The position numbers and the translations under genes are program-made. The notes below the pieces were generated by a model. That model saw only the letters and a program-made list of their open reading frames with translations, made no database searches and had not been told where the DNA came from. Positions 2,218 through 62,770 of a stretch of DNA of 64,000 nt are shown here, one piece after another; positions within the stretch are counted from its first letter, which is position 1, and each line of letters begins with the position of its first letter. Source of the DNA: Tsukamurella ocularis (GTDB lineage Bacteria > Actinomycetota > Actinomycetes > Mycobacteriales > Mycobacteriaceae); contig NZ_JANUCJ010000001.1 of assembly GCF_024807615.1 (NCBI RefSeq), forward strand, positions 62,001 to 126,000, given 5' to 3'.

Positions 2218-5200
2218 TCACTGCCAGTCGCGGGACCGGGAGGGCACCGACAGGTCCATGCGCTGCAGCCGGTCGGCGACGACGGTCACGGCGCCCTCCG
2301 CGTTCTGCAGCTTCCCCCGCACCAGCAGCGCGGGTGCCGACTGCGCGAGCCGCCGGTACCGCGCCCACAGCCCCTGGCTGCACACCACGTTCACCATTCC
2401 GGTCTCGTCCTCGAGGTTGATGAAGGTGACGCCGCCCGCGGTGGCGGGGCGCTGCCGATGCGTGACGGCCCCGCCCACCAGCACGCGGTCACCGTCGGGC
2501 AGCGAGAGCAGGCGGTCGGCCCGGACGACGCCGAGCCGGTCGAGGGCGGGCCGCAGGAACTCCGTGGGGTACTTGCCGACGGTGACCGACGTAGCCCACA
2601 CGTCCGCCGCCGCGAGCTCCGTCTCGCTCATGCCCGGCAGGGTGGGCGGGGCGCCCGCGGTGGCCGTGCCCGGCAGCCGGTCCGGGCGCTCGCGGGCGGC
2701 GGCGCCGGCCTCCCACAGCGCCTGCCGCCGGTCCCGGCCGAAGCAGTCCAGCGCGCCGGAGGTGGCGAGTGCCTCCGACTGGGCGACCGTGAGTTCGACG
2801 CGGGCGGTGAGGTCGATGAGGCCGGCGTAGAGGCCGTGCGCATCCCGCTCGCCGACGATGCGCTCGGCGAGGTCGTCGCCGATGGTGCGGATCGCGGCCA
2901 GCCCGAGCCGGACCTCCATCCCCACGTTCTCCAGATTCGCCCACGGCAGGCTGCGGTTCACACACGGCCCGTGCACCGTGACGCCGTGACGCCGCGCGTC
3001 GGCGACGAGGGACTGCGGCGAGTAGAAGCCCATCGGCTGGGCCCGCAGCAGCGCGGCGCAGAAGGCCGCCGGATGGTAGAGCTTGAACCACGAGGAGTAG
3101 AAGACCAGCGACGCGAACGACTGCGAATGACTCTCGGGGAAACCGAAGTTGGCGAACGCGGCGAGCTTCTCGAAGATCCGGTCGGCCACCTCGCCCTCGA
3201 TGCCGTGCCGGTGCCGGGCACCGTCGTAGAAGCGCTGCCGCAGCTGCTCCATCTTCTCGGTGGAGCGCTTCGACCCCATGGCGCGGCGCAGCTGATCGGC
3301 CTCCGCCGGGGAGAAGCCGGCCACGTCGGTCGCGAGCTGCATGAGCTGCTCCTGGAAGAGCGGCACGCCCAGGGTGCGCTCGAGGGTCTTCCACATCGAC
3401 GGGTGCTCGACCGCCGGCTTCTCGAGCCCGTTGCGACGCCGGATGTACGGATGCACCGAGCCGCCCTGGATGGGGCCGGGCCGGATGAGGGCGACCTCCA
3501 CCACCAGGTCGTAGAAGGTCCGCGGCCTCAGGCGCGGCAGCGTGGCCATCTGCGCGCGCGACTCCACTTGAAAGACGCCTACGGAGTCGGCGCGGCAGAG
3601 CATCTCATAGACGTTCTCATCCGCGAGGTCGAGCTGCGCGAAGTCCACGTCGATGCCCTTGTGCTCGACGAGGAGGTCCTTCGCGTAATGCAGCGCGCTG
3701 AGCATGCCGAGGCCCAGCAGGTCGAACTTCACCAGACCCGCGGCGGCGCAGTCATCCTTGTCCCACTGCAACACGCTGCGGTTCTCCATGCGGGCCCACT
3801 CGGTGGGACAGACGTCGGCGATCGGACGGTCGCAGATCACCATGCCGCCGGAGTGGATGCCCAGGTGCCGCGGCAGGTCGGCGATCTGCGCGGCCAACTC
3901 GACCACCCGCTCCGGGATCCCCTCGGGTACCGGATCGTTCCGCCACCCCCAGCTGGATATCTGCTTGCTCCAGGCGTCCTGCTGCCCCTGCGAGTAACCG
4001 AGCGCCCGGGCGGTGTCGCGCACCGCGGACCGTCCGCGATAGGTGATGACGTTCGCGACCTGCGCGGCGTACTCGCGGCCGTATTTCGCGTAGACGAACT
4101 GGATCGCCTCCTCGCGGCGGTCGGACTCGATGTCCACGTCGATGTCGGGCGGGCCGTCGCGCTCGGGGGCGAGGAAGCGCTCGAAGAGCAGCTTGTTGCG
4201 CACCGGGTCCACCGCCGTGATGCCCAGCGCGAAGCAGACCGCCGAGTTGGCGGCGCTGCCGCGGCCCTGGCACAGGATGTCGCTGCGCCGGCAGAACTCG
4301 ACGATGCTGTGCACGATCAGGAAGTAGCCGGGGAAGGCGAGCGTCTCGATCACGTTCAGCTCGTGCTCGATCTGCCGGTACGCCTGCGGATTCGACTCCG
4401 GCGGGCCGTACCGGTCCAGCGCGCCCCGGCGCACCAGCTCACGCAGCCAGGTGGCCTCGGTGTGGCCCGACGGGACATCGAAAGGCGGCAGGTTCGGCGC
4501 GATCAGCTTGAGACTGAAGGCGCACTCGGCACCGAGCTCGGCGGCGGCGGCGATGGCGCCGGGATGCTCGGGCAGCAGCAGCGTCATCTCGTCGCCCGAG
4601 CGCAGGTGGGCGCCGCCCGCGGCGGGGAGCCAGCCGTCCAGCTCGTCCAGGCTGCGGCGGGCGCGGATCGCAGCAAGCGTCGACGCCAGGTGGCGCTGGC
4701 CGGGACGGGCGAAGTGCGCCCCCGTGGTGGCGACGGTGCCCACCCCCATCTGCGCCGCGACGCCTGCCAGGAGGTGGTTGCGCTCGTCGTCCTCGGGGAC
4801 GCCGTGCACGGTGAGCTCCATGCTCACTCGGCCCGCGCCGAACCGGTCGACGAGCTGCGCGAGGGCGGCGGCGGCACCGTCGGGCCCCCGGGCGGCGAGG
4901 CCGCGCCGGACCGCGCCCTTGCGACAGCCGGTGAGGATGTGCCAATGCCCGCCGGACCACTCGGCGAGACGGTCCGGGTGGAAGCGCAGCAGCCCCTTCT
5001 CCCCCGCTTCCATGTGCGCCTCCGCCATGGCGCGGGAGAGGCGGCGATACCCCTCCTGGCCGCGAGCGAGTACGAGCAGGTGCTCGCCGGACGGGTCCTC
5101 CGCGCCGGTACGTTCGGCGTCGTGCTCCAGGGACAACTCCGCCCCGAAGACGGTGGGGACGCCGAGCTCCAAGGCCGCCTCGGCGAACCGGACCACCCCG

Positions 5201-5502
5201 TAGAAGCCGTTGTGGTCGGTGACCGCAAGGGCCTTCAGGCCGAGCGCGTGCGCCTGCTCGACCATCTCCTCCGGTTGCGCGGCGCCGTCGAGGAAGCTGA
5301 AGGCGGTGTGCGCGTGCAACTCGGCGTAGGGCACCCGGGAGAGCCCCGGACCACCATCGGGCGGAACGTAGGGCTCGCGCTTGCGGGACCAGGCCGGAGA
5401 ATCGCCACCGTCGCCCGGCGGCTCCTCCGCCCGGCGCACCGGGGCCCGCCCGGAGAGCACCCGCTCCATCTCCGACCAGCTCGGCCCGTTGCTCCATCCC
5501 AC
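2218..5502 (-). CDS. dnaE2: Error-prone DNA polymerase III alpha subunit DnaE2
   Basis: This 1094-residue C-family polymerase is the catalytic part of the SOS mutasome, copying past lesions together with ImuA' and ImuB. It has an N-terminal PHP domain (AELHAHTAFSFLDG near residue 60), the palm with PDIDVD supplying catalytic aspartates, the fingers, an HhH region and an OB fold at the C-terminus. It is shorter than replicative DnaE1 and lacks its tau-binding tail, as expected for DnaE2. The GTG at 5502 gives the N-terminus MGWSNGPSWSEMERVL, which as I recall matches mycobacterial DnaE2. The upstream DNA carries a repeated octamer and a degenerate LexA-like site rather than a clean SOS box. 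imuA'-imuB lies 4 kb away on the same strand. Confidence 0.95.
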   Translation of the reverse strand: MGWSNGPSWSEMERVLSGRAPVRRAEEPPGDGGDSPAWSRKREPYVPPDGGPGLSRVPYAELHAHTAFSFLDGAAQPEEMVEQAHALGLKALAVTDHNGFYGVVRFAEAALELGVPTVFGAELSLEHDAERTGAEDPSGEHLLVLARGQEGYRRLSRAMAEAHMEAGEKGLLRFHPDRLAEWSGGHWHILTGCRKGAVRRGLAARGPDGAAAALAQLVDRFGAGRVSMELTVHGVPEDDERNHLLAGVAAQMGVGTVATTGAHFARPGQRHLASTLAAIRARRSLDELDGWLPAAGGAHLRSGDEMTLLLPEHPGAIAAAAELGAECAFSLKLIAPNLPPFDVPSGHTEATWLRELVRRGALDRYGPPESNPQAYRQIEHELNVIETLAFPGYFLIVHSIVEFCRRSDILCQGRGSAANSAVCFALGITAVDPVRNKLLFERFLAPERDGPPDIDVDIESDRREEAIQFVYAKYGREYAAQVANVITYRGRSAVRDTARALGYSQGQQDAWSKQISSWGWRNDPVPEGIPERVVELAAQIADLPRHLGIHSGGMVICDRPIADVCPTEWARMENRSVLQWDKDDCAAAGLVKFDLLGLGMLSALHYAKDLLVEHKGIDVDFAQLDLADENVYEMLCRADSVGVFQVESRAQMATLPRLRPRTFYDLVVEVALIRPGPIQGGSVHPYIRRRNGLEKPAVEHPSMWKTLERTLGVPLFQEQLMQLATDVAGFSPAEADQLRRAMGSKRSTEKMEQLRQRFYDGARHRHGIEGEVADRIFEKLAAFANFGFPESHSQSFASLVFYSSWFKLYHPAAFCAALLRAQPMGFYSPQSLVADARRHGVTVHGPCVNRSLPWANLENVGMEVRLGLAAIRTIGDDLAERIVGERDAHGLYAGLIDLTARVELTVAQSEALATSGALDCFGRDRRQALWEAGAAARERPDRLPGTATAGAPPTLPGMSETELAAADVWATSVTVGKYPTEFLRPALDRLGVVRADRLLSLPDGDRVLVGGAVTHRQRPATAGGVTFINLEDETGMVNVVCSQGLWARYRRLAQSAPALLVRGKLQNAEGAVTVVADRLQRMDLSVPSRSRDWQ

Positions 5503-5505
5503 ACC

Positions 5506-5618: not shown

Positions 5619-6080
5619 TCAGGCCTCGTCGACGAGGCCCGGGGTGACCTTGGAGAGCACGGCCCGCAGCGCCGTGACATCGCGCGCCGTGAGATGGTCG
5701 AAGACCAGCCGGCGCACCTCCTCGACGTGGCCACGCGCGGCACCGTCGAGCGCGGAAAAGCCCTCGTCGGTGAGCTCGGCGTAAGCGGAGCGCCCCTCCG
5801 CGTGCCGAACCAGCCAGCCCCGCTCGCCGAGCTTGCGCAGCACGTGCGACAGCCGCGAGGGCGAGGAGTTGGCGGCCTCGGCGAGCGCCGACAGCCCGAG
5901 AGTGCGGTCCGGAGCCTGGGAGAGCTGCGCGAGCACCATGAACTCGTAATGGGTGATGCCGGAGTCGGTCCGCAGTTGCGTATCCAGCTTGGCCGGCAGC
6001 CGCATCGCCACGTGGATAAGGGGCAGCCACGCCGCCATCTCCTCATCGGACAACCACCGGGTACTCCCCGCGTCCGCCAT
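5619..6080 (-). CDS. MarR-family transcriptional regulator
   Basis: This 153-residue winged-helix regulator has the MarR layout: an N-terminal dimer helix, HTH (LGLSALAEAANSSPSRLSHVLRKL), the wing with HAEGRSAYAELTDEG, and long C-terminal helices. I start it at ATG 6080 (MADAGSTRW) because GGGGG lies about 7 bases upstream; an extension to 6188 would run into the divergent promoter region. It faces the amidohydrolase gene across 91 bases and probably regulates it, itself, or both. The ligand is unknown. Confidence 0.85.
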   Translation of the reverse strand: MADAGSTRWLSDEEMAAWLPLIHVAMRLPAKLDTQLRTDSGITHYEFMVLAQLSQAPDRTLGLSALAEAANSSPSRLSHVLRKLGERGWLVRHAEGRSAYAELTDEGFSALDGAARGHVEEVRRLVFDHLTARDVTALRAVLSKVTPGLVDEA

Positions 6081-7094: not shown

Positions 7095-8375
7095 ATGGCC
7101 CTCATGCAGATCCGGCGCGCCGCGGTGGCGCTGTTCGTCGCGGGGACCCTCGCGGCGTGCGGCGGCGCGCCGTCGGCGCCGCGGGCCCTCTCTCTCGAGC
7201 GGTCCAAGACCGCCTTCGAGCAGGTGGGGATCGACGAGACGCGCGACGACGTGACCGCGCTGGTCTCCACCGCCACCCGCCTCGGCGCGCGGCTCGCGGC
7301 CGGCGACCCCCGGGCCGGGAGCACCGCCGTCTCGCCCTGGTCCGTCCTGAGCCTGTTGGGCATGCTTCGGGCCGGGTCGCAGGGCGAGACCGCCGCGCAG
7401 CTCGACGGTGCCGGGCTCGGCGCCGCGAAGGATCTGCCGCGGGCGATGGCGGCCCTCACCGGCCAGGTTGCGCAATGGGCGGGCGACCCGGGCACCGTGC
7501 CCGCCGGCACGCCGCCCGCGACGCCGTTGTTCCAGTCGCAGGTGGCGCTGCTGACCGCGAAGCAGCCCGAGGACCGCCGGGTGCGCGCCGAGTACCTGGA
7601 CACGCTGTCGGCCTCCTACGACACCGGCGTCTACCCCATGGACTTCGGCCTCGGCGTGGGCGAACCGCTGGGTGAGTGGGCGGCGGTGAACACCGGCAGC
7701 AGCCTCACCTCCGCGCCGCTGCGCACCGACGCCGGCACCCGCCTCGCCGCCGCAACCACCGCCTACCTCGCGGCCGCGTGGCGCTTCCCGTTCGACGCCG
7801 CCCGCACCCGGCCCGCGCCGTTCACCGCCGCCGACGGTGCCGTGCTCGACCCGCTGACCATGCGCGGCACAGTGCCCGCGCGGGTCGCCGCGGGCGAGGG
7901 CTTCTCGGCTCTTCAGCTCGACTACGGCACCACGCTCGCGCTGCAGATCGTGCTGCCCGCCCCCGGGACGCCGCTCGCCGACGCGGCGAGCGAGAGCAGG
8001 TTCACCGCGGCCAGGCTCGCGCTGGCGGGGGCACCGTCGGCCCCGCACGAGGTGAGCCTGCCGAAGTGGCGCAGCGCCACCTGGGCCGCGCTCGCGGACC
8101 CGCTCCGGGACGCCGGCCTGACGGGGCTGTTCGCGGGCCCGGGCCTGGACGGCGTGGCCCCGGGATCGCCGTGGCTGGCCGACGCCCGCGCCGCCGCCGT
8201 GCTCACCGTGGGAGAGAAGGGCACCGCCTCCGACACCGCGACCGCGGCGCCGACCCCCGAGCCGGCGCCGGGACCCGCGCCCTTCGTGGTGGACCGCGCC
8301 TTCGCGTACTCGGTGGTCGACACGGCGACGGGACTGCCCCTGATGATGGGCACGGTCAACCGCCCGGGCGGATAG
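7095..8375 (+). CDS. Lipoprotein serpin (serine protease inhibitor fold)
   Basis: This 426-residue protein begins with a lipoprotein signal ending in the lipobox LAAC (Cys22), so it should be lipid-anchored outside the membrane. The rest is a serpin: SPWSVLSLLGMLRAGSQGET (s6B/hB shutter), a VALPKW-like strand (EVSLPKW), the reactive-loop hinge VLTVGEKGTASDTATAA, and the closing FAYSVVDTATGLPLMMGTV. The hinge has the E-x-G-T plus small-residue pattern of inhibitory serpins, but the loop itself is unusually Pro-rich (APTPEPAPGPAP). The ATG at 7095 has AGGGG 8 bases upstream. It sits 14 bases after the amidohydrolase and could be co-transcribed. Serpin identity is strong; protease inhibition is inferred. 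Confidence 0.85.
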   Translation: MALMQIRRAAVALFVAGTLAACGGAPSAPRALSLERSKTAFEQVGIDETRDDVTALVSTATRLGARLAAGDPRAGSTAVSPWSVLSLLGMLRAGSQGETAAQLDGAGLGAAKDLPRAMAALTGQVAQWAGDPGTVPAGTPPATPLFQSQVALLTAKQPEDRRVRAEYLDTLSASYDTGVYPMDFGLGVGEPLGEWAAVNTGSSLTSAPLRTDAGTRLAAATTAYLAAAWRFPFDAARTRPAPFTAADGAVLDPLTMRGTVPARVAAGEGFSALQLDYGTTLALQIVLPAPGTPLADAASESRFTAARLALAGAPSAPHEVSLPKWRSATWAALADPLRDAGLTGLFAGPGLDGVAPGSPWLADARAAAVLTVGEKGTASDTATAAPTPEPAPGPAPFVVDRAFAYSVVDTATGLPLMMGTVNRPGG

Positions 8376-8467: not shown

Positions 8468-9706
8468 ATGACCTCGACGCTGACCCGCCCGCTTCGCGCG
8501 GCGGCCCGCTCGGCGTGGGCCCTCACGGGCACCGCGCTGCTCGCCGTGCTGATCACGCTCGTCGCCGGCGGCGCCACCTTCCTCATCGCGGCCGGGACCA
8601 CTCCGCCCGCGCCGGCCCAGGAGCGGGAGAACGCCGAGAACACGCGCGTCGCCCTCAAGGCGGCCGACGAGTCGCGCGCGCTCTTCGGCCTGCTGTCGAA
8701 CGCCGTGGCCTCCGCCGGGAACGGGCTGAACACCTCGGCGAGCTCGGTGCCGCAGATCTTCGACAGCATCGACACAGCCAAAACCGGTGCGGAACAGCTG
8801 GTCTCGGGACTCGACGAGGCCTCCTCCCTCTCCGCCGCACTGAACCAGGTGAACCGGGCGACCGCCACGCTCGGCGGTGCGCTCGAACGCACGCAAGGTC
8901 TGCAGCAGGTGGCGGCCGGCACCCGGGCCGCGCTCGTCGCGCTGCGCGGGCGGCTGATCGAGCACCCGTCGCCCGGGTCGGCCGAGGCCGTCGCGCAGCT
9001 CGACCGCGCGCTCGCCGGTTCGAAAGGCGTGGGCGCGCTCGACGACGTGGCCGGCATGCGCAGCACGCTCGCGACCATGACGAGCAGCCTGAGCAGCGCC
9101 TCCGCCAACGCCGACGCGTCGCTCACCTCCGCGCGCAGCGCCGCCCGGCAGCTGCGGGACGGGCTGACCAAGCTGGCCTCGGCGCGCAAGGACGTCAACG
9201 CCTCCGTCACCAACCTGACCACCGGCGTGGGACAGCTGAAGACGGCGCTCGGCGCCATCGACGGTCAGCTCGCTCTGACGCAGACCCGGCTGCGGTCCGT
9301 GACCAGCGCGCCCGCCCCGGCGCCGGATCCCGGCATCGCGCGGCCGCTCGCCTGGGCGCTCGTCGTGGGCGGCGCGGCCGGCACCGTCACCTACCTGGTC
9401 GCCCTCGCCGTCGCCCATCGCGTGCGCCGCCGGGAGGCGATCGCGGCTGAGGCGCCGGTGGCCTCCGAAGTCGCGGCCGAGGAGCCCGTCGAGGACATCG
9501 TCACCGAGGACGCTCCCGCCGAGGGCCACCACCGCGTCATGCCGCCTGCCGCCGTGGACGAGGAGGAGGACGCCTCCGAGGATCCCGAGGGCACGGCGCT
9601 CACGTCCGGGAAGCGGGCGAGGCACCGTCGCAACCGGTTCCGGGTGGCACCGTCGGACGACACGAACCCGTACCTCTCGGTGGCCTTCTCGGGCAGCGCG
9701 GGCTGA
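8468..9706 (+). CDS. Two-pass membrane protein with extracytoplasmic coiled coil
   Basis: This 412-residue protein of unknown function starts at ATG 8468, preceded by GAGG. One membrane helix lies at about residues 14-42, then about 250 residues rich in Ala, Ser, Leu and Gln with heptad-like spacing, then a second helix at about 295-318, followed by an acidic, disordered cytosolic tail ending in a basic RHRRNRFR patch. The middle part resembles YhgE/Pip-type or chemoreceptor-like helical hairpins, but I cannot place it in a named family. The upstream gap (8376-8467) is AT-rich for this genome and likely holds its own promoter. Confidence 0.75.
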   Translation: MTSTLTRPLRAAARSAWALTGTALLAVLITLVAGGATFLIAAGTTPPAPAQERENAENTRVALKAADESRALFGLLSNAVASAGNGLNTSASSVPQIFDSIDTAKTGAEQLVSGLDEASSLSAALNQVNRATATLGGALERTQGLQQVAAGTRAALVALRGRLIEHPSPGSAEAVAQLDRALAGSKGVGALDDVAGMRSTLATMTSSLSSASANADASLTSARSAARQLRDGLTKLASARKDVNASVTNLTTGVGQLKTALGAIDGQLALTQTRLRSVTSAPAPAPDPGIARPLAWALVVGGAAGTVTYLVALAVAHRVRRREAIAAEAPVASEVAAEEPVEDIVTEDAPAEGHHRVMPPAAVDEEEDASEDPEGTALTSGKRARHRRNRFRVAPSDDTNPYLSVAFSGSAG

Positions 9707-9712
9707 TCCCGC

Positions 9713-11305
9713 CTACTCGTACACCCCCTCCACCTCCCAGCTCCCGGCGTACTGCAGCAGCAGCGCCCGCCCGTCGTCACGCCCCGGTGCGGGCTCGAGC
9801 AGCACCTGGGCACGGGCCCTCGGCTCGGCGGCGCCGTCGGACGCCCACCAGCGCTCGTCGATCAGCCACGGCCCCGCCCACCAGCTGAGCGACCAGTCGC
9901 GCGAGCCCCACACCAGGTGTGTGGGCTCACCCGTGAAGACGCCGCGCTCGGTGACCCGCACAGCCGCTCCCGCAGCGTCGGTGATCGTGACCGCGGCGCC
10001 CGTGACCAGCACCGACGGCGCGGGCTCCGGCATCCGCCCCGGCCACGGCGCGGCCGGATCGCGCTCCGGGACCACCTCGTCGCCCAACGGGACCCAGGTG
10101 ACCCGCTCGGCCGGGCCGCGGCCGCCGCTGCGCACGCCCATCCGCACCGCTTCGCCGCCGAGCAGGCCCTGCACCCGGACCAGGGCGCGACGGAACCGGG
10201 CGGCACCGTCGGCATCGTCGCCCCACATGCCCGCCTGCAGCGCGCCGGCGTCGACCACCTCGACGGGTTCGAGCCGGAGCAGGGAGATCGGGGCGCCCGG
10301 GCCGCCCTCCCCACCCCTCTTCACGGACCGGCCTCCGGTGAGCCAGCCGTCGGTCTGCCAGCGCACCCGGTCGGCGGTGCCGTCCGGGGTGAGTGGCTCA
10401 GCGCAGCGCCAGATGCGGCTGTGCCGCTCGCCGTTCTCCGCGATCGCGGAGACCTCCAAGCGCAGGCATGCCACGCCCGCCGCGGAGAGCTTGCCATGCA
10501 GCTCCGCCGCCAGGGCGCGGCCGGCGAAGGCCGCCGCGTCGACCCGGTCGATGGGTGGGTCGGGCCGCAGCTCCACCTCCAGCCCGGGCGGCAGGGCCGC
10601 GGTGGACGGCGGCCGGTCCGGCACCGCGCGGGCCTGCCGGTGCGCGGCGATCGCGTCGGTGCCGAAGCGGGTGGCCACGTCGGTCGCGGTGAGCTCGGCG
10701 AAGGCGCCGACGGTGCGCAGCCCCAGCCGGCGCAGCAGATCGAGGAGCTCGGTGCGGTCGCCGCCCGCGAGCGCCGGCTCAGCCCCCAGCTGGGCTACGG
10801 GCAGCGGGGCGAGGAAGGTCGCCGACTCCCCCGGCGGCACGACGACCCCACGCCGGGCGGCCAGGGCCGCGGTGAAGACCTCGTCGGCGATGCCGACGAG
10901 CGACTCCGCGCCCACCGAGGACGCCGCGTCCACCAGGCGCTCGGCCGCCTGCTCCTCGCCGCCGAAGAAGCGCGCCGCGCCCCGCGCCGGGATCACCACG
11001 AGCCCCGGGCGCAGCACCTCGATGAGCGGGATCAGCGCCGCCACGGCGCCGGCCACGGGCTCGAAGAGCCGCGCGTCCCGCCCCTCGTCGGCCTGGGCGA
11101 TGTGCAGCCCCGGGCAGCGGGCCTGGGATTCGCGGCGCTTCATGCCGCGGCGCACCCCGTCGGCCCGGGCGGGAGCGTTGCAGGCGACGACCCGGTTACC
11201 GTGCAGGACGGCGACGGGGCCGTCGGGTGGCAGGTCCGCGTCCGCAGCCGCAGCGGCCGCCGGCCAGTCCGGGCACCACAGGGCGAGGATGCGCTGCGCG
11301 GTCAC
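9713..11305 (-). CDS. imuB: ImuB, catalytically inactive Y-family polymerase of the SOS mutasome
   Basis: This 530-residue adaptor links DnaE2 and ImuA' to the sliding clamp. The N-terminus ILALWCPDWP lacks the metal-binding acidic residues of active Y-family polymerases, as known for ImuB. The Y-family palm/little-finger region and the C-terminal ERxxWVPLGDE segment are present. Where mycobacterial ImuB has the clamp-binding motif QLPLWG, this protein has QAGMWG (residues 357-362), a weaker fit. Its GTG start overlaps the imuA' stop (GTGA at 11302-11305), so the two are co-translated. Confidence 0.92.
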   Translation of the reverse strand: MTAQRILALWCPDWPAAAAAADADLPPDGPVAVLHGNRVVACNAPARADGVRRGMKRRESQARCPGLHIAQADEGRDARLFEPVAGAVAALIPLIEVLRPGLVVIPARGAARFFGGEEQAAERLVDAASSVGAESLVGIADEVFTAALAARRGVVVPPGESATFLAPLPVAQLGAEPALAGGDRTELLDLLRRLGLRTVGAFAELTATDVATRFGTDAIAAHRQARAVPDRPPSTAALPPGLEVELRPDPPIDRVDAAAFAGRALAAELHGKLSAAGVACLRLEVSAIAENGERHSRIWRCAEPLTPDGTADRVRWQTDGWLTGGRSVKRGGEGGPGAPISLLRLEPVEVVDAGALQAGMWGDDADGAARFRRALVRVQGLLGGEAVRMGVRSGGRGPAERVTWVPLGDEVVPERDPAAPWPGRMPEPAPSVLVTGAAVTITDAAGAAVRVTERGVFTGEPTHLVWGSRDWSLSWWAGPWLIDERWWASDGAAEPRARAQVLLEPAPGRDDGRALLLQYAGSWEVEGVYE

Positions 11306-12033
11306 TGCGCCGCCGCCCTTCGACGCTGCTCGGCGCCCCAGTACTGCTCGGCGCCCCGCTGCGGGTTGACGCAGCCGCGGCCGCGGGCGGAGAAGACCAG
11401 GTCGATCCCACGGATCCGGCCGCGTCCGGGCCGGGCGCCGAGGCCGGTGTAGCCCTGCACGCGCGCGCCGAGGTGCAGCGCGGCACCCTCCCAGCGGCCG
11501 CCGGTGACCAGCAGGATCGAGCCCCGGGAGCGGGCCCGGGCGGCGATGGCGCGGCCGCGGCTGGGCGGCACCGCGATGCCCCCGAGCTCGCACAGCACCA
11601 CGTCGGCACCGTCGAGCAGGATCGAGGCGACGGCCACCGGATCCGCGAGCGGGCCCGCGATGAGCGCGATGCGCTCCGGATCGGCCCCCTGTTCGAGTGC
11701 GGCGGCCATGCCGAAGCCGGAGACGCCGCACAGCGCGACGCTCGATCCCGCCCGCGAGACGCCGGCCACCAGCGAGACCGCGAGCGAGCCCGCGCCCGAG
11801 AGCTCCGCGACCGTGCCGCGCGGCAGGCCGCCGCCCGGCAGCAGCCGGGCCAGCTCCTCGTGCACCGGCAGCACACCCATGCCGAGCTGCGCCGATTCCT
11901 CCTGCAGCGGCGCCTCCACGGGCGCCTGCGCCTTCGCCGGACGATGCTTCTCCGGCAGCGTCGCGAGCCGCTTGCGCAGCTCCGCCAGCTTCTCCTCGCG
12001 ATTGCCGGCCATCGCCTGAACACGTGCGGACAT
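11302..12033 (-). CDS. imuA': ImuA' SOS mutasome accessory protein
   Basis: This 243-residue RecA-fold-related protein works with ImuB and DnaE2 in damage-induced mutagenesis. The N-terminal helix has the EEKLAELRKRLATLPEKHRP pattern, followed by a degenerate P-loop region (LLPGGGLPRGTVAELSGAGS) and DVVLCELGGIAVPPSRGRA. Translation starts at ATG 12031-12033 with GGGGAGGGG upstream. The LexA box at 12110-12125 lies 77 bases upstream of the start, as expected for an SOS operon promoter. The gene ends in a GTGA overlap with imuB. Confidence 0.92.
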   Translation of the reverse strand: MSARVQAMAGNREEKLAELRKRLATLPEKHRPAKAQAPVEAPLQEESAQLGMGVLPVHEELARLLPGGGLPRGTVAELSGAGSLAVSLVAGVSRAGSSVALCGVSGFGMAAALEQGADPERIALIAGPLADPVAVASILLDGADVVLCELGGIAVPPSRGRAIAARARSRGSILLVTGGRWEGAALHLGARVQGYTGLGARPGRGRIRGIDLVFSARGRGCVNPQRGAEQYWGAEQRRRAAAQ

Positions 12034-12413: not shown

Positions 12414-13919
12414 TCAGCCCACGCGATCCGGATCGTGGTGTGCGGAGGCCGCGGCGACGGGCGACACGTTCGCGGTCTTCGGGTCGACGGTGGGCGCCTT
12501 GGTGATGAGCTTGTGCCCCCACCACAGCCCGAGGAACAGGATGAGCGCGGCGTAGGTGGTGAGCAGCAGGCCGAGGCCGCCGCTCTCGCCGCCGCGCACC
12601 GCGACGTAGTACTGACCCGCGATCACCGCGACGGACATGAGGAGCGCGACGATCGGCCCCGCGGGGTACAGCCACGCCTTGTACGGCAGCTCATCGAGCG
12701 AACGCCCCTGCGCGTTCCACGCCTTGCGGAAACGGTAGTGCGCCCAGGCGATCCCGATCCAGGTCACGAAACCGGCCACGGAGGAGGCGGCGACCAGCGC
12801 CGTGTACGCGGCACCGTCGCCGACGAAGTTGGTGACGAAGCACAGCGCGCCGATGGCAACCGTCGCCGCCGTCGCCACGTAGGGCACGCCCGAGGACCTC
12901 GATACCTTGGCGAAGATCCGCGGGGCGTTGCCCTCGACGCCCAACCCGTAGAGCGCGCGGGTAGCGGCGAACAGGCTGGCGTTGCCGGCCGAGAGGATGG
13001 CGATGAGGATGACGGCGTTCATGATAGACGCCGCGGCATCGATGCCCGCGAGCTTGAAGACCAGGGTGAACGGCGCCACCGCGACGTTCTCCTCGGAGGC
13101 GTCCAGCAGCTCCGGACTGGTGTACGGGATGAGGAAGGCGATGATCGTCAACGTGCCGATGTAGAAGACCAGGATGCGGAAGAAGACCGTGCGCACCGCG
13201 CGCGGGATGGCGCTCTTGGGCTCGATCGCCTCACCCGCCGCTACCGCGATCATCTCCGTGCCCTGGAAGGCGAAGCCGGCGATGAGGAAGACCGAGAGCA
13301 TGCCCAGCGGCCAGTCCACGAAGGGGGCGTCGCCGATGGTCCAGTTGGAGAAGCCGGGGGCCGGGCCGTCGCCGACCACACCCAGCACCATGAGCACGCC
13401 GACGATGAGGAAGATCACCACCGCGATCACCTTGATCGAGGCGAACCAGAACTCGGCCTCGCCGAAGGCCTTCACCGCGAACAGGTTCAGAGCCAACAGG
13501 CCGGCGAGGAAGATCAGCGACCATACCCACGAGGGCACGTCGGGCAGCCAGAACTTCATGATCAGGCCGGCCGCCACCACCTCCGCGGCCAGCGTGATCG
13601 ACCAGTTGAACCAGTAGTTCCAGCCGGCGGCGAAGCCGAAGGACTTACTGACGAACCGGCTGCCGTACTCCTCGAACGGATTACTGCACGGCATGTACGC
13701 CGACATCTCGCCGAGGCTCTGCATGAGGAAGAAGACCATGACGCCCATGAGCGCGTAGGCCAGGAGCGCGCCACCGGGGCCGGCCTTGCTGATCGTGGCG
13801 CCGGACGCCACGAACAAGCCGGTGCCGATCGCGCCGCCGAGCGCGAGCATGCTGATGTGGCGACTCTGCAGTCCCTGGCGGAGGGAGTCGTCGGGGGTGA
13901 TTCCAAGAGGGCTGGACAC
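12414..13919 (-). CDS. Amino-acid permease (APC superfamily, AAT/LysP-RocE type)
   Basis: This 501-residue, 12-helix transporter imports amino acids with protons. The first helix has the APC substrate motif GGAIGTGLFVASGATISKAG, followed by the family-typical EMSAYMP and GFAAGWNYWFNW loop. The C-terminal tail is short and hydrophilic. It starts at GTG 13919 and is divergent from the CGNR gene across 50 bases. A hairpin terminator follows it. The exact amino acid cannot be assigned; the closest types carry basic or aromatic residues, proline or GABA. Confidence 0.9.
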   Translation of the reverse strand: MSSPLGITPDDSLRQGLQSRHISMLALGGAIGTGLFVASGATISKAGPGGALLAYALMGVMVFFLMQSLGEMSAYMPCSNPFEEYGSRFVSKSFGFAAGWNYWFNWSITLAAEVVAAGLIMKFWLPDVPSWVWSLIFLAGLLALNLFAVKAFGEAEFWFASIKVIAVVIFLIVGVLMVLGVVGDGPAPGFSNWTIGDAPFVDWPLGMLSVFLIAGFAFQGTEMIAVAAGEAIEPKSAIPRAVRTVFFRILVFYIGTLTIIAFLIPYTSPELLDASEENVAVAPFTLVFKLAGIDAAASIMNAVILIAILSAGNASLFAATRALYGLGVEGNAPRIFAKVSRSSGVPYVATAATVAIGALCFVTNFVGDGAAYTALVAASSVAGFVTWIGIAWAHYRFRKAWNAQGRSLDELPYKAWLYPAGPIVALLMSVAVIAGQYYVAVRGGESGGLGLLLTTYAALILFLGLWWGHKLITKAPTVDPKTANVSPVAAASAHHDPDRVG

Positions 13920-31512: not shown

Positions 31513-33123
<1,611 letters not shown>

Positions 33124-33218: not shown

Positions 33219-33518
33219 TTACTTGCCGATGACGGCCAGGACGTCGCGCGCGGAGAGCACGAGGTACTCCTCGCCGTCGTAGTTGAACTCGGTCCCGCCG
33301 TACTTGCTGAACAGCACGGTGTCGCCCTCGCTGATGCCGGTGGGAACCCGGTTGCCCTGCTCGGTCACGCGGCCCTCGCCGACGGCGACGACGGTGCCGG
33401 TCTGCGGCTTCTCCTTGGCGGTGTCCGGGATGACCAGGCCCGACGCGGTGGTGGTCTCGGCCTCGGTGGCCTTCACCAGGATCTTGTCGTCAAGCGGCTT
33501 GATGTTCACGCTCGCCAC
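33219..33518 (-). CDS. groES: 10-kDa co-chaperonin GroES
   Basis: This 99-residue lid protein of the chaperonin has the N-terminal [16 protein letters not shown], the mobile loop around [18 protein letters not shown] and the [25 protein letters not shown] end. It is first in the groES-groEL1 operon, about 120 bases downstream of a CIRCE element, so HrcA repression and heat induction are expected. Confidence 0.97.
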
Positions 33519-51092: not shown

Positions 51093-52499
51093 CTAGTCGC
51101 GCAGCAGGGCGACCAGGACGCCCGGCACCGCCGCACTGATCGCTGCGGCGTGCGTCGGGGCACCGTCGGCGGCGCGGTCCGCGGCGAGGCCGTGCACCCG
51201 CGCGGCGCAGGCGGCCGCGTCGAGCGGAGCGAGTCCGGAGGCGAGGAGTTTGCCGACGAGTCCGGTCAGCACGTCGCCGGAGCCGGGCGTCGCGGCCCAG
51301 GACGAGCCCGCGGTGTCGGCCACGCCGGTGCCGTCGGGCGCCGCGATGACGGTGACGTGCCCCTTGAGCAGCACTGTCGCGTCGAGTTCGCGGGCCGCCT
51401 CGCGGACGGCCGCGACCCGGTCGTTGCCGACGGGACCCACGAGCCGCGCGAATTCCCCCGCGTGCGGCGTCAGCACCGTCGGGGCGGTGCGGCCGGACAG
51501 CAGCCCCGGGTGCTCGGCGAGCAGGGTCAGCGCGTCGGCGTCGAGCACCGTCGGGAGGTCCTGGTCGAGGACCCGGGCCAGACGGTCCGCGGCGGCTCCG
51601 TCGGTCCCCATGCCGGGGCCTACGGCCCACGCCTGCACGCGCCCCGCGTCCGCCACGTCATCGCTCGCGACCACCTCTGGCCAGGCGGCGAGAACCACCT
51701 CGCGGGCGGTGCCGGCGTAGCGGACCATGCCCGATGTCGCGCGGATCGCGGCGCCCGTCGCCAGAACGGCCGCGCCGGGATACTGATCGCTCCCGGCGAC
51801 GACGCCGAGCACGCCGAGGCTGTACTTGTCGTCGGCCGGGCCGGGGACGGGCCAGAGCGCGGCCAGGTCGGCGTCGTCGTAGGCGCGCAGCTCGCCCGCA
51901 CCGAGCGTGAGACCGATGTCGACGAGCTCGACACGGCCGCACCGGGCCGGAGCGAGGGCGTGGACGGGCTTGAGAGCACCGAAGGCGACAGTCACCGCCG
52001 CGGTCACGGCCGGGCCGTGGACGACGCCCGTGCGCACGTCGACGCCCGACGGGGTGTCCGCCGCGACGATCGGCGCGGTGATCCCGGCGACGAGGTCCGC
52101 CGCCTCCGGCCGGAGCGCGCCGTGCGCGCTGATCCCGACGATGCCGTCGACCACCAGGTCCGGACGGCGCGGCACCGCGACGACCCGCCCGCCCGCGCGC
52201 TTGAGGGCGCGGAGCCCCGCGGCGTGCGCACGGTCGGGGGCGAGCAGCACAGCCTCCACGGCGACGCCGCGGCGGCGGAGGAAGGCGCCGGCGAAGAGCG
52301 CGTCGCCGCCGTTGTCGCCGGAGCCGACGAGCAGCGTGACGCGGCGGCCCGCGGTGCCGCCCGTGCGATCGATCAGGTCGCGCGCGCACACGCCCGCGAG
52401 GCCGTAGGCGGCGCGGCGCATGAGTGCGCCCTCGGGCAGGGCGGCGAGGAGGGGCGCCTCGGCCGCGCGCACGGTGTCGGGGTGGTGGAAGTGCCGCAC
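51093..52499 (-). CDS. nnr: Bifunctional NAD(P)H-hydrate epimerase/dehydratase
   Basis: This 468-residue enzyme repairs hydrated NADH and NADPH. The N-terminal YjeF epimerase domain (about 1-205) has GSGDNGGDALFAGAFLRRRG and DGIVGISAHG. The C-terminal ADP-dependent dehydratase (about 215-468) has TPHAGEFARL, LLKGHVTVIA and PGSGDVLTG. The start is GTG 52499. It is 13 bases upstream of alr on the same strand, a usual pairing, and divergent from the gene at 52537. Confidence 0.94.
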   Translation of the reverse strand: MRHFHHPDTVRAAEAPLLAALPEGALMRRAAYGLAGVCARDLIDRTGGTAGRRVTLLVGSGDNGGDALFAGAFLRRRGVAVEAVLLAPDRAHAAGLRALKRAGGRVVAVPRRPDLVVDGIVGISAHGALRPEAADLVAGITAPIVAADTPSGVDVRTGVVHGPAVTAAVTVAFGALKPVHALAPARCGRVELVDIGLTLGAGELRAYDDADLAALWPVPGPADDKYSLGVLGVVAGSDQYPGAAVLATGAAIRATSGMVRYAGTAREVVLAAWPEVVASDDVADAGRVQAWAVGPGMGTDGAAADRLARVLDQDLPTVLDADALTLLAEHPGLLSGRTAPTVLTPHAGEFARLVGPVGNDRVAAVREAARELDATVLLKGHVTVIAAPDGTGVADTAGSSWAATPGSGDVLTGLVGKLLASGLAPLDAAACAARVHGLAADRAADGAPTHAAAISAAVPGVLVALLRD

Positions 52500-55253: not shown

Positions 55254-55550
55254 TCAGGCCCCCGTGACGGCGGCAGCGCCACTGTCGTCGGTGGTCCTGT
55301 GCGCCGATGCGGACGTGGTCAACCCGGTGCCGCACGCGCGCGAGGCCACCTGCCAGGTGTCGACGCCCTTCGCGAGGCTCTCCATTGTGGCGGCGTAGGC
55401 GGCACCGTCGTCCTGGTACTTCCGCCCGAAGTCACCGGCCTCCGCGGTGAAGCCGCGGAGGCGGCCGGCGACGGTGCCGAGGTTGTCGGCCACCGTCGAA
55501 TAGCTGCCGCCGGCCGTTGACACCGCGACGACGTCGATCTTCGTGCCCAT
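55254..55550 (-). CDS. Small WXG100/ESX-like protein
   Basis: This 98-residue protein starts at ATG 55550 with AGGGGG upstream. It is helical with GSYSTVADNLGTVAGRLRGF and a second helix DDGAAYAATMESLAKGVDTW. Size, helical hairpin form and pairing with a larger secreted-type gene fit an ESX (type VII) substrate, though the Trp-x-Gly turn is not clear. Its stop is 3 bases before the GTG of the 549-residue gene, so they are translated together. Confidence 0.7.
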   Translation of the reverse strand: MGTKIDVVAVSTAGGSYSTVADNLGTVAGRLRGFTAEAGDFGRKYQDDGAAYAATMESLAKGVDTWQVASRACGTGLTTSASAHRTTDDSGAAAVTGA

Positions 55551-55621: not shown

Positions 55622-56311
55622 TCAGATCGCCCCGGCCGCGCGCACCGCGTCGAGCAGACCGGACGGGCGGGCGTTGACGGGGAGGGGCTCGACCTGCGCG
55701 AAGCCGCAGCCGATGGCGCGGGAGGCACCGTCGGCCTCCTCGCTGTCGCCGACCATGAGCACCCTCTCCGGCGGCAGGCCGAGGGCGGCGGTGGCGGCGT
55801 GGAAGACGGCGAGGTCCGGCTTGGCGTGGCCCACCTCGAAGGAGAGGACGAACTCGTCGACGAGGCCCTCGATGCCCTCGCGCTCGAACGCGGGGCGGAT
55901 GTCGTAGCCGATGTTGGAGAGCACGCCCACCTTCAGGCCGGCCTCGCGCGCGGCGCGGAGCACGGCGGCGGTGTCGGGGTAGATCGACCAGTTCAGCGGG
56001 TTCGAGAACTCGCCGTAGAGCCGCTCCCGCTCGCCCTCTTCGGCGACGCCGGAGTGCTCGAGGACGTGCAGGTACGCGCCGCGGTGGTCCGCGGAGGAGA
56101 GATCGCGGGCGTGCCAGGTACGCAGCGCCTCGCCCGCCATCGGCACTGGGACACCGACGGGCACCGTCATCCGGTACAGGAGCTCGTGCTGGGCGGCGTC
56201 GTCGAGCTCGCGTCCGTCCGCGTCGTTGAGCCCTGCGAACCACGCCGGGTCCGGCTCCAGCCGGAACAGCGTCCCCGAGAAGTCGAACAGCACACCCTCG
56301 TAACCGGTCAT
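55622..56311 (-). CDS. HAD-superfamily hydrolase
   Basis: This 229-residue HAD enzyme starts at ATG 56311. Motif I is DFSGTL (nucleophile Asp10; the usual second Asp is Ser, as in many dehalogenase-like members), motif II VGVLSNIG, motif III Lys in HAKPD and motif IV VMVGDSEEAD. It could be a phosphatase or a dehalogenase-like enzyme. It sits between the ESX-like genes and glmM on the same strand. Confidence 0.88.
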   Translation of the reverse strand: MTGYEGVLFDFSGTLFRLEPDPAWFAGLNDADGRELDDAAQHELLYRMTVPVGVPVPMAGEALRTWHARDLSSADHRGAYLHVLEHSGVAEEGERERLYGEFSNPLNWSIYPDTAAVLRAAREAGLKVGVLSNIGYDIRPAFEREGIEGLVDEFVLSFEVGHAKPDLAVFHAATAALGLPPERVLMVGDSEEADGASRAIGCGFAQVEPLPVNARPSGLLDAVRAAGAI

Positions 56312-58806: not shown

Positions 58807-59078
58807 AGGAGATCCTCTGCTCGATGGTTCGATGCCGGTCCCATGTGCGGCAAGAGCGCTCCCGGCGACCAACGGAGACCCGGGGCTCGACTCCGCATCG
58901 CACCCCAGTCCTACGACCGGAGGGCAGCGCGGCGCCACACACCAGCGGACCAGAGTACGCGGGTGCCCCGTCGCAGGTCAAAACGGCCTGATCCCTGCCC
59001 GACGGTGCCGCGGCTCAGGGTCCGGTAGGGGGCTTTCCCGGATGTGGCGGGGCACCGTCCGGAAATAGCGTCGAGGAC

Positions 59079-60416: not shown

Positions 60417-60446
60417 GCCCCGTTACATCTGTCACTAGGAGTGGTC

Positions 60447-61904
60447 GTGAGCCAGATTTACGATGACGGCATGAGCGCCCCCCAGAGCCCGCTGGGCCCG
60501 TCCGCACCGTCGAACCATCCCGGGCAGGGGGTACCGCCCCTGCCCGGTCCCCCGCCGCTGCCGGGGCCACCGCCCCCGTCCGAGCCGCCCGCGCCGGAGC
60601 CCGTGTGGTCGAGCGCGCGGAAGCTGGCCTTCCGCCTGCTGTTCGTGGTCGGCGGCGGCATCCTCCTGCTGTCCGTGTACGGCAACGCTGGGCTGGCCGT
60701 CGTGTGGAATCTCTCCGGCATCTGGTGGCTGCTCGCGCAGATCGGCAGCTTCGTCACCACCGGCGGGGGCGTCGACATCGTCATCTCCGGCGGCGGCGAC
60801 AACCGGTGGCAGTGGTCCATGCACCTCGGCTGGATCCTGGTCGGTCTCGTGATCGTGGTGGTGTGGACGGCGCTCGACCGCAACCGGCCGAACTACCGCG
60901 CGCTGTTGGGACTGCTCGGCGTGTTCGCGCGGTTCGCGCTGGCGCTGTCGATGCTGTTCTACGGCATCGCCAAGGTGATCCCCACCCAGATGGGCTTCAT
61001 GGCGCTGCCCGCGCACCAGTTGCAGCTCACGGGCGACACCAGCCTGTTCTCCACGCTGTGGGGCTTCATGGGCGCGTCGGTCCCGTACATGGTGATCACC
61101 GGCCTGGTGGAGCTGACGGCGGGCGTGCTGCTGCTGTGGCGGCGCACCGCGGTGCTGGGGTCGCTGGTCGTGATCGTCGCGATGGGCCAGGTCTTCCTGC
61201 TCAACCTCTTCTACGACGTGCCCGTGAAGATCATCGCGGGCGAGCTGCTGATCATCGCGATCGCCCTCACCGTCCCGTACGCGCCGAACCTGCTGCGGGC
61301 GGCGCTGAACCGCCCGACTGCGACCCCGGTGCCGCCGCTCCCGGTCGCCGGCGCGAGCCGTTCGTGGGCCCGGATCACGGGGCAGGTCCTCAAGTTCGGC
61401 ATCGCGGGGATCCTGATGATGGTGCTCACGGCGAGCGGTGCGCTCATGACCTACGTGATCCACACCCCGCGCTCCGCACTCGACGGGGTCTGGCGGGCCA
61501 CGTCCTTCACTGTCGACGGTGCCCCTGCCGGGCTTGCGCAGCGCGATCCGGCTCCGTGGTCGAACGTGGCGATCACCCTGCGCGGCAATGATTCCAACGC
61601 GGCCCTGAAGTCGCTGAGCACTGCGTACGACAGCGTGGTGACGCAGGAGCCCTCCGGCTACACCACCGCGTGGGGGCTCGAAATGGAGGGCGACGTGCTC
61701 GCGCTCCGCAAGAAGGAGGGTGACGCTCCCCTGCGCGTGACCGCGCGCGTCGACGGCGACCGGCTGCAGCTCAGCGGCACGGTGGCCGGCAAGCGCATCG
61801 AGGGCGTCTACGAGCGCCGATTCATGGAGCGGCAGCGTTCGCACTTCCGCTTCGTTCAGCCCGACGATTCCGGCGCCGCCGGCCCGGAACGAGGAGGTTC
61901 CTGA
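60447..61904 (+). CDS. DoxX-like membrane protein with C-terminal lipocalin-like domain, copy 2
   Basis: This 485-residue paralogue of the preceding gene shares VIPTQMGFMALP, LWGFMGAS, TGLVELTAGVLLLWRRT and the external domain LDGVWRATSFTVDGA. It has an extra Pro-rich cytosolic N-terminus. GTG 60447 has AGGAG 5 bases upstream; ATG 60471 is also possible, with TACGAT at 60459-60464 as a leaderless -10. The pair probably arose by tandem duplication. A GGAGG site at its end serves the next gene. Confidence 0.75.
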   Translation: MSQIYDDGMSAPQSPLGPSAPSNHPGQGVPPLPGPPPLPGPPPPSEPPAPEPVWSSARKLAFRLLFVVGGGILLLSVYGNAGLAVVWNLSGIWWLLAQIGSFVTTGGGVDIVISGGGDNRWQWSMHLGWILVGLVIVVVWTALDRNRPNYRALLGLLGVFARFALALSMLFYGIAKVIPTQMGFMALPAHQLQLTGDTSLFSTLWGFMGASVPYMVITGLVELTAGVLLLWRRTAVLGSLVVIVAMGQVFLLNLFYDVPVKIIAGELLIIAIALTVPYAPNLLRAALNRPTATPVPPLPVAGASRSWARITGQVLKFGIAGILMMVLTASGALMTYVIHTPRSALDGVWRATSFTVDGAPAGLAQRDPAPWSNVAITLRGNDSNAALKSLSTAYDSVVTQEPSGYTTAWGLEMEGDVLALRKKEGDAPLRVTARVDGDRLQLSGTVAGKRIEGVYERRFMERQRSHFRFVQPDDSGAAGPERGGS

Positions 61905-61905
61905 C

Positions 61906-62706
61906 ATGACCAGACCATTCCGCTTCGCGGTGACCGCACTGCCGGTGCCGCAGCTCGGCGACTGGGCGACCTATGCACGGTCGGTGGAGTCCGACGGCTT
62001 CGACGTGCTCGCGCTGCCCGAGAACTACCCGCTGCCCGACGGTTTCACCTCCGCCGCGGTGGCGCTGGGCGCGACCTCGACGCTGGAGGTGGCGAACTAC
62101 GTGGTGGCGTCGCCGCTGCACGATCCGAAGCACGCGGCGTGGCAGGCGCATTCGCTGGCGACGATCAGCGGCGGCCGGTACCGGTTCGGCATCGGCACGG
62201 GCCGGCCCGACGTGGCCGGCGACGCCGCCGCCCTCGGCGTGCCCTTCGGCACGGGCGCCGAGCGCCTCGCTCGCGTCGTGGACACGCTCGACGCCCTGGC
62301 AGCGCTCGACGGTGCCGGGCACACCCCGGTGCTCATGGCGGCGGGCGGGCCGAAGGCCCTCGCGGTGGCGCGCGAGCGGGCCGACACCGTGGCAGTCGCG
62401 ACGGCGCCCACCACCACGGCGGAGGCCCTCGCGGCGCTGACGGCGCCGCTGCGGGACCGGGTGGAGCTCGCGTGCTCGATCTTCGCGGTGAACGGCTTCG
62501 CGCCCGACTACGTGAGCGCGTTCATCGGCACCGACCTCGACGCCCTGCGCGCCGTGGACTCCCCGGCGCTGGTGGACGGCTCCGTGGACGAGATCTGCGA
62601 GACGTTGATCCGCCGGCGCGAGGAGTACGGCTTCTCGCTCATCGCGCTCGGCGGGCACACCCTGGAGGCGATGCGCCCGGTGGTCTCGCGCCTGGCCGGG
62701 ACGTGA
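61906..62706 (+). CDS. LLM-class (F420-dependent type) oxidoreductase
   Basis: This 266-residue luciferase-like TIM-barrel protein has LPENYPLPDGFTSAAVALGA, the strand YRFGIGTGRPD and VLMAAGGPKALAVARERAD. Family members use F420 or FMN to reduce or oxidise organic substrates. It is shorter than typical LLM enzymes (about 300), lacking part of an insertion. It starts 1 base after the DoxX gene with AGGAGG, so it is co-transcribed and may use the same redox partners. Confidence 0.85.
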   Translation: MTRPFRFAVTALPVPQLGDWATYARSVESDGFDVLALPENYPLPDGFTSAAVALGATSTLEVANYVVASPLHDPKHAAWQAHSLATISGGRYRFGIGTGRPDVAGDAAALGVPFGTGAERLARVVDTLDALAALDGAGHTPVLMAAGGPKALAVARERADTVAVATAPTTTAEALAALTAPLRDRVELACSIFAVNGFAPDYVSAFIGTDLDALRAVDSPALVDGSVDEICETLIRRREEYGFSLIALGGHTLEAMRPVVSRLAGT

Positions 62707-62770
62707 CGCGCCGACGGTGCCCCTCCCCGACGGCACCCCTCAACGGCGTTTCAGGCGCATGATTGGGGGC

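Follow-up and report, generated by a model that had tools for sequence, protein, structure and literature searches.

The window analysed here, a stretch of 64,000 nucleotides from Tsukamurella ocularis, is interspersed with many copies of one nonamer, GCACCGTCG. This raises the question whether the word merely reflects the codon usage and composition of the genome or is maintained as a signal and, if so, by what process. In an earlier note on the window it was proposed to be a genome-wide recognition sequence, resembling a DNA uptake sequence. The first part of that proposal was borne out by several independent tests, whereas the specific reading as an uptake sequence is compatible with the data and unproven. 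We conclude that GCACCGTCG is almost certainly a maintained recognition word that acts at the level of the DNA, and maintenance by selection or molecular drive is the best reading of the data. Our literature searches returned no published description of the word.

Over-representation of a single exact word

The window holds 50 exact copies, 29 on the forward and 21 on the reverse strand (Table 1). The over-representation reported earlier thus stands, the count of about 48 (28 and 20) being slightly low and the reported span (4731..62720) leaving out the copies at 545 and 3218. Dinucleotide shuffles predict 3.9±1.9 copies and none of 100 shuffles reached 50, while Markov models of order 3, 4 and 5 predict 7.3, 12.3 and 22.3 copies, expectations that are inflated by the word itself as the models were trained on the window. 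The complete 4.31-Mb genome has 2,598 copies (1317 forward and 1281 reverse) versus 68 (34 and 34) for the reversed word. The k-mer check proposed earlier was run on a 424-kb sample of this genome, where 264 copies are present versus 48, 79, 127 and 211 under orders 3, 4, 5 and 6; the order-4 and order-5 models fall short. When 8- to 12-mers were ranked under models of these two orders, GCACCGTCG and its overlapping shifts came out on top both in the 424-kb sample and in 400 kb of PLM1.

Table 1. Copies of GCACCGTCG in the window; all are exact matches
Position	Strand	Remark
545..553	-	
3218..3226	+	
4731..4739	-	
4874..4882	+	
5740..5748	+	
7403..7411	-	
7832..7840	-	
8031..8039	+	
9622..9630	+	
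9647..9655	+	
10203..10211	+	
10708..10716	-	
11606..11614	+	also in orthologous DNA of PLM1, TY48, 1534
12811..12819	+	
14205..14213	+	
16284..16292	-	
16915..16923	+	
17604..17612	-	
17676..17684	-	between called genes
18117..18125	-	
18578..18586	+	
21619..21627	-	also in orthologous DNA of PLM1, TY48, 1534
23891..23899	+	
28286..28294	+	
30481..30489	+	between called genes
32120..32128	+	inside groEL
33389..33397	-	gene upstream of groEL; also in orthologous DNA of PLM1, TY48, 1534
35119..35127	-	
35214..35222	+	
36022..36030	+	
36986..36994	+	
38425..38433	-	
41919..41927	-	
42464..42472	+	
45284..45292	+	
46870..46878	+	
47621..47629	-	
49523..49531	-	
50692..50700	+	
51160..51168	+	
51473..51481	+	
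51545..51553	+	also in orthologous DNA of PLM1, TY48, 1534
55402..55410	+	
55469..55477	-	
55725..55733	+	
59000..59008	-	between called genes
60504..60512	+	between called genes
61514..61522	-	
62307..62315	-	
62712..62720	-	between called genes

The excess is specific to the exact word. Copy numbers of its one-base neighbours in the window range from 0 to 20, GCGCCGTCG being the commonest with 20. Relative to shuffled expectation the one-base variants reach 0-4.2 times (37 of 54 values within 1.0-2.5), versus 5.7 and 7.3 times for GCACCGTCG. Both measures agree with the impression, gained by eye before, that the neighbours are much less enriched. Around the core there is a slight wider preference, S-G-GCACCGTCG-R. 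Such a strong genome-wide excess of one exact word is a property expected of uptake sequences.

The copies are spread over many different genes and are not confined to one repeated domain. Their spacing is near-random, and they lie on both strands, within and between genes. The PLM1 chromosome, with dnaA located at its start, was sampled in 20 stretches, where 145 of 295 copies are on the leading strand (145:150; 95% interval 0.43-0.55), and neither a gradient from ori nor a concentration at ori or ter was seen in these stretches. This comparison of orientation with replichore is in line with the earlier argument against a KOPS-like polar signal. The dispersal in both orientations, over coding and intergenic DNA and without replication polarity, is likewise as expected of an uptake sequence. 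Close pairing of inverted copies at gene ends was not seen: gaps below 50 bp are not in excess (6 versus 8.2 expected in this genome, 11 versus 11.0 in PLM1), and the density in the intergenic DNA, where copies are present, is not raised. There is a mild excess of somewhat longer gaps with mixed orientations, at 50-100 bp in this genome (18 versus 7.9) and at 50-200 bp in PLM1 (42 versus 30).

Distribution and conservation

Comparison with other genomes, another of the checks proposed earlier, showed that the word is strongest in one genus. The ten Tsukamurella genomes have about 425-772 copies per Mb, with the highest density in PLM1, the sister lineage 8F has 265, and 95 other genomes of the family have at most about 171. 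This clade-specific distribution again corresponds to that of an uptake sequence. Mobile DNA gives a mixed picture: copies are few in the mobile part of a plasmid and in two related phages, but a third phage is enriched. The first 70 kb of the plasmid pTpau01 contain 10 copies where about 30 are expected at the host rate (P 3e-5), and the last 30 kb, with an NRPS cluster, contain 34. Copy numbers in TIN2 and TIN3, two related phages of the genus, are close to the low values expected for each. Phage TPA2 is three-fold enriched, with 17 copies versus 5.6 expected (Poisson P 8e-5); three Gordonia relatives have 1, 3 and 6 copies in 50 kb.

In directed comparisons between species the exact word was kept in 208 of 505 cases (41%), versus 23% for words of the same composition, and one-mismatch states were found in 18% versus 31%, the comparisons not being independent of one another. 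Where the window copies were compared with three species at positions that encode the same peptides, the exact word was kept in 43 of 92 cases and synonymous spellings in 8 of 77. The positions of the word also turn over between species. None of the nine positions is free of one-base differences, of which 45 of 90 are transversions. The differences cluster at the A of the word (47 of 90, of which 34 are A/G) and may therefore have a mutational component.

Codon usage and protein sequence

The earlier note had argued that codon or peptide bias cannot explain the copies, and this held up. Synonymous-codon shuffling of the called genes of the 424-kb sample left 43.1±5.9 copies (maximum 55 in 100 shuffles) versus the 240 coding copies seen, and in the PLM1 sample 30±6 versus 225. 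As had been stated, the copies occur in several frames and on genes of both strands: five of the six frames are used, although unevenly (sense 43/76/6, antisense 0/33/82; 424-kb sample). The intergenic copies reported at 59000 and 62712 were confirmed and three more were found between called genes, an assignment that is approximate, the genes having been called with a home-made caller. The observation that rare codons are used to keep the word also holds. In addition, the protein sequence itself is affected. The tripeptides APS and DGA occur at 1.7-2.0 times the frequency expected from composition in the two motif-rich genomes sampled (this genome and PLM1), and at 0.5-1.1 times in 8F and four outgroup sets, whereas the reversed tripeptides SPA and AGD are at 0.93-1.00 and 0.78-0.82 in the same two genomes. 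In the PLM1 sample GCACCGTCG is present in 63 of 75 GC-Thr-Val-G contexts and in 39 of 66 APS tripeptides.

Candidate readers

Matches to ComEC were found in all 12 genomes tested (in pieces in G044), and a ComEA-type HHH_3 match adjoins ComEC in 11 of the 12 (absent in G044). Competence genes are thus encoded, as an uptake sequence would require, but they do not discriminate, since motif-poor genera and 8F encode them too. A literature search for natural transformation in Tsukamurella returned no paper. Of the four methyltransferase families searched, none is common to all eight motif-rich genomes (PF01555 in one, PF00145 in seven, PF02384 and PF07669 in five each). This genome has one match to PF00145 and none to the other three families, and T. 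spumae (G070) lacks PF00145. The RecC family is represented in all 12 genomes, with the match split between two frames in PLM1.

Possible causes of the maintenance

Bias in codon pairs, peptides or composition alone might be suspected, considering that other genomes of the family have 44-940 copies each, mostly above the reversed word, that part of this background is codon usage (16 of 25 GC-Thr-Val-G contexts carry the word in two other genera), and that reshuffling every second codon within fixed neighbours leaves 141 of 240 copies, a number partly explained by the retention of half of each copy in this control. Nevertheless, bias alone is refuted at the level of the nulls used and we consider it extremely improbable. 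The full synonymous shuffles remove most copies, both orientations and intergenic DNA are used, the word encodes 43 of 100 APS tripeptides in this genome versus 0 of 58 in Streptomyces, and pooled Streptomyces DNA of equal GC content has 29 copies versus 39-53 expected. Equally hard to credit is a target of restriction or defence. Such sites are normally avoided in a host and its phages, whereas this host is enriched for the word and none of the three phages counted falls below expectation; no point in support of this reading was found.

Two other explanations deserve more weight. A chromosomal site, of which each copy is selected for a recombination or repair enzyme (Chi-like, for RecBCD or AdnAB) or a nucleoid-organising protein, is possible, albeit on the unlikely side. 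It would be in line with the conservation of the exact word over its synonymous spellings, the dispersal of copies along the PLM1 chromosome with no gradient from ori and the presence of RecC in all 12 genomes, and the partial enrichment in TPA2 would fit a site that aids any replicating DNA. However, the leading-strand bias of Chi is lacking, RecC is also present in motif-poor genomes, and its match is split in precisely the densest genome. We regard as clearly less probable a by-product like HIP1 of cyanobacteria, in which near-matches become the word through the action of an orphan methyltransferase or of a repair enzyme that depends on sequence context. HIP1 is the closest parallel in density and dispersion, a methyl-directed repair model has been published for it (PMC4390886), and the between-species depletion of one-mismatch states is as expected if these are repaired back. 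Yet no enzyme among the four methyltransferase families is shared by all eight motif-rich genomes searched, GCACCGTCG is not palindromic, and the one-base differences affect every position, with transversions making up half.

A sequence-specific DNA-binding protein of the host probably reads GCACCGTCG. Among the mechanisms considered we favour a role like that of DNA uptake sequences, the most likely one, although we put its probability somewhat short of even. In this mechanism a putative competence or pilus receptor would prefer DNA that bears the word (ComEA and ComEC being encoded), and recombination of word-bearing DNA from kin would spread copies and repair broken ones, i.e. act as molecular drive. 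The enrichment in TPA2 speaks against it, since an uptake word has no obvious gain for a phage. Further points against it are the presence of ComEA and ComEC in motif-poor genomes, the lack of close pairs and of raised intergenic density, and the share of one-base differences at the A, which may have a mutational component. More tentatively still, we suggest a self-recognition uptake sequence of Tsukamurella of 9-11 nt, the drive of which may have risen mainly after the split from 8F and rewritten part of the proteome (APS, DGA).

The origin of maintained words is disputed between uptake drive, repair by-product and selected chromosome function, and to our knowledge few lineages with such genome-wide words are known. 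The present case is a clean one that sharply separates the sister lineage 8F from the other members of the genus, and it combines the lack of a common methyltransferase among the families searched with a measurable bending of protein sequence. The gain, the spread and the reader of the word can therefore be tested directly, in bacteria that grow in culture. Should uptake prove to be the cause, kin-selective DNA uptake would extend to the Actinobacteria, and the word would then, we believe, be the first uptake sequence among actinobacteria and indeed among all Gram-positive lineages.

Comparison with known systems

Chi of E. coli is a short, over-represented word with many copies, as is GCACCGTCG, but Chi is strongly oriented, whereas GCACCGTCG has no strand polarity relative to replication and no preference for the leading strand. 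KOPS and matS-type signals are short words recognised by proteins, which GCACCGTCG putatively is as well; it differs from them by the absence of polarity and of concentration at ori or ter. HIP1 (GCGATCGC) of cyanobacteria occurs at about one copy per kb genome-wide, is palindromic and generally accompanies GATC/CGATCG methyltransferases (PMC4390886). GCACCGTCG is similarly dense genome-wide, with function unproven in both cases, but it is non-palindromic and none of the four methyltransferase families is common to all carriers searched.

The uptake sequences of the Neisseriaceae (DUS) and Pasteurellaceae (USS) are dispersed in both orientations and commonly paired as inverted copies at gene ends. 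They are described as words of 9-12 nt with thousands of copies, lineage-specific and with dialects that track phylogeny (PMC3630211), with atypical densities in mobile elements (PMC7371117) and weak enrichment of mismatched forms (PMC1939737). GCACCGTCG differs in its host, a high-GC actinobacterium, in the absence of terminator-like pairing and in the partial enrichment of one phage, and its uptake role is a candidate one. It resembles DUS and USS in being short and lineage-specific, in its thousands of copies in both orientations and in the weak enrichment of its variants.

Copy number and phylogenetic range

The nonamer GCACCGTCG occurs 50 times in the window, 29 times on the forward and 21 times on the reverse strand, against 3.9±1.9 copies in dinucleotide shuffles, and its one-base variants have 0-20 copies apiece. 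The over-representation described in the earlier note therefore stands, although its count of about 48 copies (28 and 20) has to be replaced by the exact figure. The 4.31-Mb genome contains 1317+1281 copies of the word and just 34+34 of the reversed word. The comparison with fourth- and fifth-order Markov models that the earlier note proposed as a check came out in favour of the word as well: the window together with 18 further stretches (424 kb of the 4.31 Mb) holds 264 copies, more than either the order-4 (79) or the order-5 model (127) predicts. In PLM1, the Tsukamurella genome with the highest word density, 400 kb of the 4.39 Mb hold 295 copies versus 72 and 133, respectively. Among the 8- to 12-mers of both samples, the word and its shifted, overlapping forms rank first. 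The exact word reached 5.7 and 7.3 times the shuffled expectation, the one-base variants 0-4.2 times, with 37 of 54 values within 1.0-2.5. The flanks show preferences for C/G at -2, G at -1 and A/G directly 3' of the word.

The word is dense in ten Tsukamurella genomes. This genome has 603 copies per Mb and nine further ones have 1,911-3,395 copies each (~425-772 per Mb), in a count where G102 and G103 repeat G070 (T. spumae) and G100. The other 95 genomes of the family have 44-940 copies each, at most ~171 per Mb, and in the phylum set of 396 genomes none apart from this genome exceeds ~266 per Mb (G170); these densities are approximate, as genome sizes were rounded, and the maxima for both sets were read off tables. 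G170 and two genomes of the same genus (G319 and G133), which belongs to another family and has genomes of ~1.7 Mb, show an uneven enrichment (~266, 179 and 101 per Mb).

In Tsukamurella sp. 8F the count is lower, at 1,247 copies (265 per Mb). A 120-kb sample of it contained 29 copies versus 11.3 expected, and its top words were C runs. A groEL tree, from which three of the ten word-counted genomes (G030, G053 and G086) are absent, places 8F as sister to eight other Tsukamurella rows, which are grouped with support 100/99. In 8F the word is thus only weakly developed, being either at an early stage or in decay. No dispersed word of comparable strength was found in the small samples of four other genera of the family (58-80 kb each) and in the 120 kb of 8F. 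Literature searches returned no published description of the word; the string itself does turn up in papers, none of which, by title and among the matches listed, deals with genome words.

In strain TY48 another strong word, GCCTTATCCGC, was considered as a second dispersed motif and rejected, being a local array, perhaps within a repetitive gene. None of the samples from this genome, PLM1, 1534 and 8F contains it.

Location of the GCCTTATCCGC array
Feature	Genome	Location	Strand	Copies
GCCTTATCCGC local array	Tsukamurella TY48	L129:13787-19643 and L130:888-1323	one strand only	38

A signal at the level of the DNA

That codon or peptide bias cannot account for the copies, as the earlier note held, was borne out by shuffling synonymous codons inside called genes, after which 43.1±5.9 of 240 coding copies remained in this genome (100 shuffles, maximum 55) and 30.4±5.5 of 225 in PLM1. 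Even under a harsher control, in which every second codon was moved and its neighbours stayed fixed, the 141±12 and 123±9 remaining copies fell below those observed. The densities between and within genes, as called with a purpose-made simple caller, were 0.47 versus 0.64 per kb in this genome (coding fraction 0.88) and 0.76 versus 0.73 in PLM1, where the coding fraction of 0.77 implies that the 'intergenic' class takes in missed genes. Copies are denser where GC is higher (Spearman 0.46 across 82 10-kb stretches). When genes are divided into fifths by codon score, the top fifth has the fewest copies per kb (0.42 and 0.33).

The word is also reflected in the proteome. The contexts APS, C-DGA and GC-Thr-Val-G are spelled as the word in 43/100, 82/138 and 76/99 cases in this genome and in 39/66, 98/133 and 63/75 cases in the PLM1 sample. 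The tripeptides APS and DGA reach 1.7-2.0 times the level expected from composition in these two genomes, versus 0.5-1.1 times in 8F, two other family genera pooled, Streptomyces, Pseudonocardiales and Nocardioidaceae; their reversed forms show no rise in this genome or PLM1. Only APS and DGA discriminate, since GTV is elevated in 8F too (1.64).

Orientation, spacing and turnover

On the complete PLM1 chromosome, which starts near dnaA (match from base 158), 20 stretches carried 145 leading-strand and 150 lagging-strand copies (leading fraction with a 95% interval of 0.43-0.55). This agrees with the earlier argument from mixed orientation against a KOPS-like polar signal, and leaves both KOPS and Chi polarity rejected or at least weakened. 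Density and distance from the origin were uncorrelated (Spearman -0.05). The gaps between copies are near exponential (CV 0.99 and 0.98), with a mild surplus, in mixed orientations, of gaps of 50-100 bp in this genome (18 versus 7.9 expected; window and L083-L100) and of 50-200 bp in PLM1 (42 versus 30; L101-L120). Paired terminators and a restriction target were considered as well and rejected or weakened.

In orthologous strips of PLM1, TY48 and 1534 the word was kept exact in 208 of 505 directed comparisons, which are mutually non-independent (41%, versus 23% for 62,035 9-mers of the same composition). One-mismatch states were rarer than in the controls (18% versus 31%) and states with at least three mismatches commoner (30% versus 23%). 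Where a peptide has several possible spellings, the motif spelling of window copies was conserved in 43/92 cases and alternative spellings in 8/77. For 33 window copies an alignment was available in each of the three relatives; 4 of these copies were present in all and 11 in none, and positions therefore turn over too. The 90 one-base differences between species hit every one of the nine positions, 47 of them at the A, and are half transitions and half transversions. An origin by deamination only (GCG to GCA) is weakened, because GCGCCGTCG is not clearly depleted (100 versus 99.8 and 56 versus 68.4) and 43 of the 90 differences lie elsewhere.

Plasmids and phages

The T. paurometabola plasmid pTpau01 (L136/L139), typed as mobilizable, shows a sharp step in word density at ~70 kb. 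Its first 70 kb, IS-rich and with a relaxase, hold 10 copies and its last 30 kb, with an NRPS/salicylate-synthase cluster, 34; the step suggests that this block has long resided in Tsukamurella. In T. tyrosinosolvens NCTC13231, the records named 'plasmid 26' and 'plasmid 25' (NZ_LR134468 and NZ_LR134467) look like mislabelled chromosome pieces rather than plasmids, because they carry housekeeping genes (thiC; groEL, guaA and guaB, respectively). Phages TIN2 and TIN3, close relatives that amount to one observation, have 4 and 2 copies in their first 50 kb (2.0 and 1.3 expected). In Tsukamurella phage TPA2, 61 kb contain 17 copies versus 5.6 expected, and relatives of this phage, at 50 kb each, have 1, 3 and 6 (Gordonia) and 2 (Mycobacterium), with 3.4-4.0 expected.

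Candidate readers and mechanism

Among 12 genomes searched, ComEC is encoded in all (in pieces in G044), a ComEA-type HHH_3 match adjoins it in 11, motif-poor genomes among them, and the RecC family is found in all, so that none of the three separates motif-rich from motif-poor genomes. In PLM1 the RecC match is split over two frames (G104:C1:2301246-2302221), and recC looks broken there, or misassembled. A by-product of repair or methylation is improbable, as no methyltransferase of the four families searched is common to the eight motif-rich genomes: DNA_methylase (PF00145) occurs in seven, T. spumae lacking it, N6_Mtase (PF02384) and Eco57I (PF07669) in five each and N6_N4_Mtase (PF01555) in one.

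In view of these gene-family searches our tentative preference is for a word that serves recognition and owes its spread to uptake and recombination, over both such a by-product and a chromosomal site of the Chi or nucleoid type, which we consider rather unlikely. Phage TPA2 is the main result at odds with a pure uptake model. The nearest known kinds are the uptake sequences of Neisseriaceae and Pasteurellaceae (DUS/USS; PMC1939737, PMC3630211, PMC7371117) and HIP1, the genome-wide palindrome of cyanobacteria (PMC4390886).
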